Shown in pieces: positions 13,546 to 20,638 of a stretch of DNA of 39,413 nucleotides (the stretch's first letter is position 1; the number at the start of each line of letters is the position of its first letter). The DNA comes from a virus. The position numbers and the translations under genes were made by a program. The DNA lies in the IMG/VR virus record IMGVR_UViG_3300021247_000250, positions 1 through 39,413 of that record, one strand, 5' to 3'. The notes under the pieces are model-generated. The model made no database searches, had not been told where the DNA came from, and saw nothing but the letters and a program-made list of their open reading frames with translations.

Positions 13546-13571
13546 TGTTATAGTAGTTTGAAACACGGCTA

Positions 13572-13654
13572 GGTACGAAGTCATGAGCGTACCGAAAAGC
13601 GAACTCCCCGCCTGCCGACTGTTTCTTCTGGGAGATTTGCGGAGATGCTAAATG
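13572..13654 (+). ncRNA. Candidate cis-regulatory RNA upstream of the DUF1376 gene
   Basis: Hairpin 1 is GGTACG (13572-13577) paired with CGTACC (13588-13593) around a 10-base loop. Downstream, CTCC (13604-13607) can pair with GGAG (13631-13634) while CCGC (13608-13611) pairs with GCGG (13639-13642). The crossing order fits an H-type pseudoknot. The GCGGAG that it traps (13639-13644) is the Shine-Dalgarno sequence seven bases before the ATG at 13652. This suggests control of translation of the replication gene. Structure is predicted by eye only. Confidence 0.4.
13583..13651 (+). CDS. Possible 22-residue leader peptide
   Basis: ATG at 13583 opens MSVPKSELPACRLFLLGDLR and ends with TAA at 13649-13651, immediately followed by the ATG of the DUF1376 gene (TAAATG). 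Ribosomes finishing the leader would be placed to restart at the next gene and would unwind the predicted pseudoknot. The initiation signal of the leader itself is weak (TAGGT ten bases upstream), so it may only be part of the RNA element. Confidence 0.3.
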   Translation: MSVPKSELPACRLFLLGDLRRC

Positions 13655-19774: not shown

Positions 19775-19792
19775 AATTGGGGACAGATCAAC
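19775..19792. repeat. 18-bp direct repeat, copy 1 (REP-like)
   Basis: AATTGGGGACAGATCAAC, identical to 19801-19818 and 26 bases from it. ATTGGGGACAGA is the shape of REP-type palindromic-repeat units that accompany IS200/RAYT transposases in betaproteobacteria, but no transposase is present here. Confidence 0.7.
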
Positions 19793-19800
19793 ACCAGATT

Positions 19801-19818
19801 AATTGGGGACAGATCAAC
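19801..19818. repeat. 18-bp direct repeat, copy 2 (REP-like)
   Basis: Exact second copy of the repeat at 19775-19792. Confidence 0.7.
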
Positions 19819-19945: not shown

Positions 19946-19988
19946 GGGGCAGGGGGGGTAGGGCTGGAACGGCAGGCAGGGAGGGGGG
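19946..19988 (+). repeat. G-tract cluster with quadruplex potential
   Basis: Five G-tracts of three or more (19946-19949, 19952-19958, 19961-19963, 19979-19981, 19983-19988) occur within 43 bases, with loops of 2, 2, 15 and 1. They follow C-tracts at 19908-19920, so a hairpin and a quadruplex are alternative structures. It stands just ahead of the late promoter repeats. Confidence 0.5.
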
Positions 19989-20003
19989 CCCACTCACTTA
20001 AAT

Positions 20004-20047
20004 CCAAATTTTTCTCAAAACTTTTCTTAACCTAGGTTTACTAAAGC
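20004..20047 (+). promoter_or_regulatory. Tandem promoter-like repeat, copy 1
   Basis: A 44-base unit that recurs at 20061. It has CTCAAA (20014-20019) and TTTACT (20037-20042) 17 bases apart, with an AACCTAGGTT palindrome over the -10 side. The -35 is a poor sigma70 match. Repetition with fixed geometry is the main support. Confidence 0.45.
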
Positions 20048-20060
20048 CAATTCCCCATTC

Positions 20061-20105
20061 CCAAATTTTTCTCAAAAACTTTTTTAACTTAGGTATACTA
20101 GAAGC
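20061..20105 (+). promoter_or_regulatory. Tandem promoter-like repeat, copy 2; probable late promoter
   Basis: A 45-base unit, period 57 from copy 1. CTCAAA (20071-20076) and TATACT (20094-20099), preceded by TAGG, are spaced 17 bases. Predicted transcription starts near 20106, the first base of the 11-bp stem of the leader RNA. It drives the late operon that starts at 20214. Confidence 0.55.
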
Positions 20106-20196
20106 GTTGGTAGCCAAGTAAGGGTTAGCGCCTTACCTTTTATGTTGTGCAAATACAGAAAAGTCGAACACTCTGCTTTATGAGGTGGCTACCAAC
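20106..20196 (+). ncRNA. Structured 91-nt leader RNA of the late operon
   Basis: GTTGGTAGCCA (20106-20116) pairs perfectly with TGGCTACCAAC (20186-20196) to make an 11-bp closing stem. Inside are a perfect hairpin (GTAAGG 20118-20123 with CCTTAC 20131-20136) and a weaker one near 20171-20184, so a junction RNA is predicted. It ends 17 bases before the first late gene. No tRNA-type D, anticodon or T arms fit. Candidate roles are 5'-end protection, RNase III cleavage or translational control. Confidence 0.6.
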
Positions 20197-20213
20197 ATCA
20201 TTTAAGGATGTAT

Positions 20214-20372
20214 ATGAAAGCTGGTTTGTATGCAAATATCCATAAAAAGCAAGAACGTATCAAACGTGAGAAGGCTGCTGGTAAGCCTGTAGAGAAGATG
20301 AGAAAGCCTGGCTCCAAGGGCGCTCCTACTGCTAAGGCGTTTGAACAATCTAAGAAGACTGCCAAGAAATGA
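20214..20372 (+). CDS. Small basic phage protein, first late gene
   Basis: A 52-residue Lys-rich protein (MKAGLYANIHKKQERIKREK, then KMRKPGSKGAPTAKAF). This block is a recurring small peptide in many freshwater and marine phages, usually in the head-gene cluster. The ATG at 20214 is chosen because AAGGA lies five bases upstream; ATG 20208 is in frame but overlaps that element. Nucleic-acid binding or virion packing is likely from charge alone. Confidence 0.65.
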   Translation: MKAGLYANIHKKQERIKREKAAGKPVEKMRKPGSKGAPTAKAFEQSKKTAKK

Positions 20373-20638
20373 AGCACGATAAACCTATGGCCCATAAGAC
20401 TACTGGTAAGGGTAAGACTTATAACCCTACGGACAAGGGTGCTGGTATGACTGCTAAAGGTCGTGCTGAGTACAACAAGAAGAATGGAAGCAATTTAAAG
20501 GCTCCTGCTCCTAATCCTAAGACAAAGGCAGACAAGGGGCGTAAAGCTTCTTTTTGCGCGCGGATGGAAGGTGTGGTCAGGAATGCTAAAGGTCCCGCTG
20601 AGAGGGCTAAAGCATCGTTAAGGAATTGGAAATGTTAA
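20369..20638 (+). CDS. DUF6321-like small basic protein
   Basis: An 89-residue protein. YNPTDKGAGMTAKGRAEYNK, then KNGSNLKAP and a KASFCARMEGV block ending LRNWKC match DUF6321, a family of small basic phage proteins with the SFCARM signature. The ATG overlaps the preceding stop by four bases. The family is commonly next to head genes; function is not established. Confidence 0.75.
   Translation: MKHDKPMAHKTTGKGKTYNPTDKGAGMTAKGRAEYNKKNGSNLKAPAPNPKTKADKGRKASFCARMEGVVRNAKGPAERAKASLRNWKC

Follow-up and report, generated by a model that had tools for sequence, protein, structure and literature searches.

Why should the late transcript of a phage begin on a base that is already paired? The question is raised by a non-coding stretch of IMG/VR virus record IMGVR_UViG_3300021247_000250, a freshwater phage record of 39,413 bases that is taken here in full and referred to as the window. 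Within it, a 91-nucleotide (nt) RNA is predicted to start directly behind a promoter-like repeat and ahead of the first late gene. Comparison with related sequences establishes the fold of this RNA, the family to which it belongs, a rule for its transcription start, and its optional, cassette-like occurrence. As to function, we give about an even chance to a combined reading, in which the late transcript starts at G20106 with a three-helix leader module that protects the 5′ end and binds a factor. The domain is built from the following parts.

20106–20196, plus strand: structured RNA domain of 91 nt, new family, matching model R1 (fold and comparison)
20106, plus strand: putative transcription start at the first base of helix P1 (G20106; spacing rule kept in relatives)
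20106–20116, plus strand: 5′ arm of P1, GUUGGUAGCCA, pairing with 20186–20196 (fold; shuffled-partner test)
20118–20123, plus strand: 5′ arm of P2, GUAAGG, pairing with 20131–20136 (fold; covariation)
20124–20130, plus strand: loop of P2, GUUAGCG, nearly invariant; proposed contact of A20127, G20128, and C20129 with U20177, C20176, and G20175, respectively
20131–20136, plus strand: 3′ arm of P2 (fold; covariation)
20137–20170, plus strand: segment of variable length and sequence across members (alignment)
20171–20173, plus strand: 5′ arm of P3, CUC, pairing with 20182–20184; members carry CAC/GUG, CUC/GAG, CCC/GGG, or UCC/GGA
20174–20181, plus strand: loop of P3, UGCUUUAU, nearly invariant (comparison of members)
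20182–20184, plus strand: 3′ arm of P3 (fold; covariation)
20186–20196, plus strand: 3′ arm of P1 (fold; shuffled-partner test)

The original prediction, made from the letters of the window, described an 11-bp perfect stem closing a 91-nt RNA. This stem (20106–20116/20186–20196) is indeed part of the minimum-energy fold obtained for 20104–20214, which contains P1, P2, and P3. The single sequence nevertheless proves little, because its fold beats chance by a modest margin (z = −2.06, with 7 of 200 shuffles as stable); it is the related sequences that make the fold certain. The window scores 49.2 bits (E = 3.2e-13) against model R1, whose own alignment includes the window. The sole match to the window's exact stem (GTTGGTAGCCA...TGGCTACCAAC) came from a large phage (L002), where it forms a perfect hairpin that is unrelated. 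An AUG-UGA near the P3 loop was considered as a start–stop element and dropped, since members whose P3 is CUC/GAG or CCC/GGG lack it.

The family domain consists of the P1 closing stem, P2 with its GUUAGCG loop, and P3 with its UGCUUUAU loop. Using exact strings from the loops to fetch members, we collected 142 loci from IMG/VR phage contigs (loci carry L numbers here), in which a descriptor found 145 distinct copies; IMG/VR searches with two conserved cores gave at least 120 viral stretches. Judged from sequence, most family members sit in contigs that lack homologs of the window phage's proteins, and 100 of the 144 loci in the set based on frame I (an RNA frame described below) have no such homolog. 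Seven loci (L229, L236, L246, L247, L255, L265, and L267) hold family members in another recurrent context, with GGCTTTTTTTGTTTTT before and TCCTCCTCCTACGACAACCGTACTC after the domain and neither promoter nor frame; these may be a different kind of unit.

Covariation in P2 and P3 was assessed on alignment A1, which comprises 63 non-redundant members. Standard pairs made up 94.7% of P2 and P3 compared with 76.5% after shuffling, 108 cells had both sides changed compared with 32, and the covariation score was 0.476 compared with 0.123, a value that none of 500 shuffles matched; the signal was lost when the partners were slid against each other. A plain MAFFT alignment misplaces P1 because the sequence of this stem is free, and P1 was therefore tested by partner exchange, in which 3′ flanks are swapped between members. 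The mean helix score was 9.86 for true partners and 5.15 for exchanged ones (best of 200 shuffles, 5.72), and in the 20 members without GTTGG the corresponding values were 10.37 and 4.11. Conservation of the stem by compensating changes in relatives had been set beforehand as the test of the prediction, and this is what both analyses revealed, the exchange for P1 and the covariation for P2 and P3. The features by which we would recognize a new RNA family, namely the order P1–P2–P3, both loops, and compensating pairs, were thus all found.

The two loops also vary together. Where the first loop is UUUGGCU or UUUGGCC, the second is UGCCUUAU or UGCCUCAU, and the fourth positions of the two loops form A-U in 141 members and G-C in four, with no mismatch. 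This covariation, seen at one varying pair in a small subgroup and in a collection fetched by the loop strings themselves, suggests a loop–loop contact of the form AGC:GCU (or GGC:GCC).

The statement that no known RNA class was recognized was borne out by the Rfam searches. Among 4227 families, none matched the window at its gathering cut-off, and none reached E ≤ 5 on a 501-base region; scans of the relatives returned only tRNA. Neither ARAGORN nor Rfam called the window RNA as a tRNA or tRNA-like element, and the GOLLD and ROOL models had no match in the window or in the Rfam scans of relatives. The covariance model of Polynucleobacter-1 RNA (RF01718) had no match in the window genome, although its control did not match either. 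A resemblance to twister, pistol, and hammerhead ribozymes found no support in Rfam. Motif strings gave nothing relevant in the papers searched, few of which were subscription papers or preprints, so that a prior description is possible. Cellular genomes yielded six matches, of which two are real, being short frame-carrying contigs binned to Burkholderiales metagenome-assembled genomes, and the others lie inside unrelated sequence. A model search of these two metagenome-assembled genomes found no member, and the domain was absent from 399 sampled Burkholderiales genomes.

The position of the domain relative to a promoter was examined in 92 members that lie outside the array frames (termed free members), by recording, in 3-nt distance bins, hexamers with at least five of six matches to TATAAT. 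Such a −10 hexamer ends 5 to 7 nt upstream of P1 in 36 of the 92, all other bins holding zero to three, and does so in none of the 51 members inside frame II. A near-consensus −35 (at least five of six matches to TTGACA, 16–18 nt further upstream) accompanies 19 of the 53 free members that have a looser −10 at that distance. The same spacing recurs with a different RNA: in a subgroup of the window's clade, TATAAT, TACAAT, or TAGAAT stands six bases upstream of a GUUGG stem that belongs to an unrelated module with GUUGGGAC..., GUUGGAGC..., or GUUGGAAU... (L026, L028, L030, L033, L035, L037, L038, L039, and L043). Because the −10 sits 5 to 7 nt before P1 in these 36 free members, a start on a paired base appears to be a conserved design; by this comparison, the family rule is that base +1 coincides with the first base of P1. 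The window conforms, its TATACT ending 6 nt before G20106, the start that had been predicted. From this putative start, the 5′ nucleotide of the primary transcript would be paired, as in a 5′-terminal stabilizing stem.

Around the domain, the window contains the following elements.

19961–20003, plus strand: G-rich block ending GGGGGGCCCACTCA, conserved in the clade ahead of the late promoter and present before the first late gene of most TerL relatives; boundaries approximate
20004–20043, plus strand: promoter-like repeat copy 1, CTCAAA-17-TTTACT, without an RNA element at +1
20061–20100, plus strand: promoter-like repeat copy 2, with CTCAAA at 20071–20076 and the −10 TATACT at 20094–20099, ending 6 nt before P1 as in 36 of 92 free relatives
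20204–20208, plus strand: Shine-Dalgarno sequence AAGGA of the first late open reading frame (ORF), 7 nt past P1, read from the sequence
20214–20372, plus strand: 52-residue ORF (phrog_16028), the first late gene in the window (protein comparison)

The tandem repeats with a period of 57 are real: the two copies are 88% identical at a spacing of 57, and in each, as read from the sequence, 17 bases separate CTCAAA from the −10-like hexamer (20014–20019 and 20037–20042 in copy 1). That they form a tandem promoter is plausible but unproven, and the copies are not equivalent, since only copy 2 has the RNA at the right distance. The hexamer TATACT of copy 2 is close to the sigma-70 consensus TATAAT and lies 6 nt from the putative start; a sigma-70 scan listed neither copy. 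What is conserved of the promoter in the clade is AAATTTTT-N3-5-AAAACTTTT, which is not a −35 hexamer. Upstream, at 19775–19818, the window carries two perfect 18-nt direct repeats (AATTGGGGACAGATCAAC) with a spacing of 26, in place of which L004 has three 30-nt repeats (2378–2467).

The late genes that follow the non-coding stretch on the plus strand are the 52-residue ORF, ORFs of 89 and 187 residues, the terminase large subunit, the portal, and the major head protein. The original prediction placed the RNA ahead of a whole late operon of ~29 kb. The large plus-strand ORFs from 20214 to the end of the window are indeed of late type where they could be identified, but the figure of ~29 kb is plausible only if the ends of the window are joined. 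In MW202484, the circular genome of an uncultured podovirus from Manatee Spring and the only close GenBank relative, there is a single late block, interrupted by just one minus-strand gene; blastn against GenBank phages and plasmids found no true relatives beyond this genome. The ORFs of 52 and 89 residues (20214–20638) are very common in aquatic phages, the former being present in more than 590 viral stretches, and are relocated elsewhere in the genomes of relatives.

Eighty contigs carry a close terminase. The assumption that the RNA homolog always lies upstream of the 52-residue ORF failed, as gene order varies, and homologous leaders were found once the promoter block and first late gene served as anchors. 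That gene is preceded in most relatives by the G-rich block with its terminal GGGGGGCCCACTCA and by AAATTTTT-N3-5-AAAACTTTT in one to several copies. The nearest relative, L004 (97% identity in TerL), has the same RNA (84% identity), but its distance downstream of the promoters is ~350 nt, and other structured units lie in between. Among the 49 relatives with a readable leader, 27 have recognizable RNA modules and 13 join the promoter straight to the gene (leader shorter than 150 nt), from which it follows that the RNA domain is, by sequence comparison, accessory in this phage group. Across the family, a ribosome-binding site lies within 45 nt of the domain in 23 of 81 members (Shine-Dalgarno sequence 5–26 nt away), and the first downstream genes encode small and large terminase subunits, head proteins, and repressor-like and other regulators. 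Two further features of relatives' leaders were seen: a strongly conserved non-coding block of ~230 nt (GTGGACGAACTATGGCATCCACTG...GGGCTGGATGATGGCCCCG...) between two promoter copies (L026–L030, L033, L035, L037–L039, L043, L051, and L059), and a long insert in L010 and L015 (TTAACGGCCAGAACGAYAGACCG...GAAAGTCGTGCGATACGRAGTCTCAACTG...) that is bigger than other cargo.

Elsewhere, members of the family reside in two conserved RNA frames. Frame I reads AACACG-CAU-GGGGAUUG...CAGUCCCC-AGC-CGUGUU; frame II, GUUGGU...ACCAAC, lies directly 3′ of it, and its 5′ arm overlaps the 3′ arm of frame I. The stem of frame I covaries at position 2 (147 of 149 paired compared with 122.8 after shuffling) and position 3 (148 compared with 135.2), with 0 of 500 shuffles as good in either case, and its 3′ arm alone is widespread in IMG/VR among the matches listed. 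Clustering of the 301 extracted inserts gave 147 groups, including 95 singletons. An insert type can occur in both frames: the window's family, besides its frame II members, occurs as a frame I insert in L175, L353, L270, and L171, and two other insert types also occur in both, one in L364 (frame I) and L291 (frame II) and one in L071 (frame I) and L025/L036 (frame II). A tRNA lies on the same strand within 700 nt of 18 of 160 frame instances, with a total of 20 tRNAs in 1.27 Mb of loci. Of 30 whole records, 28 hold a frame, each at a single place and in one or two copies. Tandem arrays of frames I and II with ~150 insert types, adjoining tRNA-Met and tRNA-Asn, were seen at L004 (2640–3030), L018, L073, L317, L293, and ~100 other loci. 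These observations lead us to propose, tentatively, that freshwater phages carry a modular RNA-cassette system, in which two conserved frames, placed in tandem at operon starts and beside tRNAs, hold an open-ended repertoire of interchangeable folded RNAs; the window leader would be one such cargo placed at +1, and conflict with hosts or with competing phages may have diversified the repertoire.

What, then, could the domain do? According to our preferred reading, the late transcript would begin at G20106 and its first 91 nt would fold into a self-contained three-helix domain, an optional cassette inserted after the promoter and ahead of the first gene's ribosome-binding site in a phage operon. 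P1 would pair the 5′ end from +1, and the invariant loops of P2 and P3 probably touch. 5′-Terminal pairing stabilizes bacterial mRNAs, according to papers as they are cited in PMC3997798; by analogy, the flush paired 5′ end may protect the leader and the long late mRNA against decay that depends on the 5′ end, and the invariant loops may present a compact surface to a putative host or phage factor. Several observations weigh against this reading. CTCAAA is a poor −35 compared with TTGACA, the best match at a spacing of 16–18 being three of six; the loop–loop contact depends on a single varying pair in a few related members; a mere protective stem does not explain the near-invariant apical loops; and the array members (51 in frame II and four in frame I) are not 5′-terminal. 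The readings are not fully exclusive of one another.

It is possible, though doubtful, that the late transcript is cut to free the module, which would then act in trans as a small, stable RNA in the manner of tRNAs from phage tRNA clusters, the late promoter merely supplying it early in the transcript. The arrays with same-strand tRNAs described above would fit, as would the resemblance of frame I to a tRNA acceptor stem and the T-arm-like hairpin found in 10 of 296 inserts compared with 0.12 expected; moreover, some members (for example, L187, L237, and L244) are followed by a new promoter rather than by a ribosome-binding site. In the window and many other loci, however, the RNA abuts the ribosome-binding site of the first gene, as in the 23 of 81 members with a Shine-Dalgarno sequence 5–26 nt away, and neither a processing site nor a terminator was identified.

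Action in cis on the transcribing polymerase, so that it ignores pausing and termination along the late operon, seems improbable to us. The precedent is put of phage HK022, a nascent RNA that on its own, with no need for protein factors, suppresses pausing and termination and that binds the zinc-binding domain of the RNA polymerase β′ subunit (PMC9378689). The compact two-hairpin fold of the window RNA would likewise be ready once the first ~90 nt are made, and among the long operons that the family heads are terminase operons from unrelated phages. Yet in 13 of 49 close relatives the shared promoter drives this operon with no module in between (another element could substitute), and the open-ended insert repertoire of the frames, with its 147 clusters and 95 singletons, also weighs against such a role. 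Rfam records no homology to put, and a direct comparison of sequence or structure with put was not made.

Control of translation of the 52-residue ORF, riboswitch- or repressor-like, is very unlikely, even though 7 nt separate P1 from the Shine-Dalgarno sequence and the invariant loops could bind a regulator: the domain precedes many different genes (terminases, repressors, and head genes), also occurs away from any ribosome-binding site, and showed no alternative structure over that site. A chance hairpin beside a chance promoter-like repeat, which the weak single-sequence fold statistics (z = −2.06) and the poor −35 might have suggested, is refuted by the comparison, in which ~145 distinct members show compensating changes and the −10 keeps a fixed distance.

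A second, unrelated structured leader was observed at the early operon of the window (13549–13652, plus strand), reaching the ATG of a primosomal-like gene. Its layout is TATAGT followed by GAAACACGGCUAGG-hairpin-CCGAAAAGCG...CUGCCG..UGUUUC, and ~20 loci keep it, with an unchanged distance to the −10. Inside it, a C-rich stretch is able to pair, in a switch-like manner, with two segments further downstream, of which one lies at the Shine-Dalgarno sequence; such two-site pairing is found in 11 of 17 cases, compared with a shuffled mean of 4.4 and a maximum of 9.

What began as one odd leader is now a family that has a covariance model and follows a rule open to testing: a −10, then six bases, then the first paired base. 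Uncultured freshwater phages would seem commonly to begin their messages with elaborate RNA domains absent from Rfam. Interchangeable inserts in fixed frames would, if true, be a new viral route to vary RNA instead of protein. MW202484 and the contigs listed here are ready test material.

For the family and its architecture of frame and cargo we found no known counterpart; the promoter and the 5′ stem are each ordinary. Polynucleobacter-1 RNA, from a 2010 survey (PMC2864571), shares the freshwater Burkholderiales context. As in phage tRNA clusters, same-strand tRNAs adjoin the frames, an acceptor-like stem of 7–8 bp forms part of frame I, and a few inserts have T-arm hairpins, but the window RNA lacks a T-arm, an anticodon arm, and a CCA end. 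GOLLD and ROOL are large RNAs of phages or prophages whose function is likewise not known and which often lie close to tRNA islands, GOLLD env-38 being located downstream of a Met-tRNA (PMC12286853); they differ in being several hundred nt long with conserved folds of their own, whereas units of the window type are modular and 60–100 nt long. Like the window RNA, put is a structured nascent phage RNA near an operon start, with two hairpins in a compact fold (PMC9378689), but it precedes the early genes of a lambdoid phage, whereas the window RNA has its closing stem at +1, has other loops, and is dispensable in close relatives. The 5′ stem-loops of the ompA/papA type (Emory, Bouvet and Belasco, cited in PMC3997798) also have a 5′ end paired from the first nucleotides, right after the promoter and upstream of the ribosome-binding site; they are simple gene-specific hairpins, whereas the window family is a covarying three-helix domain with invariant loops that occurs in unrelated phages and also at internal positions.
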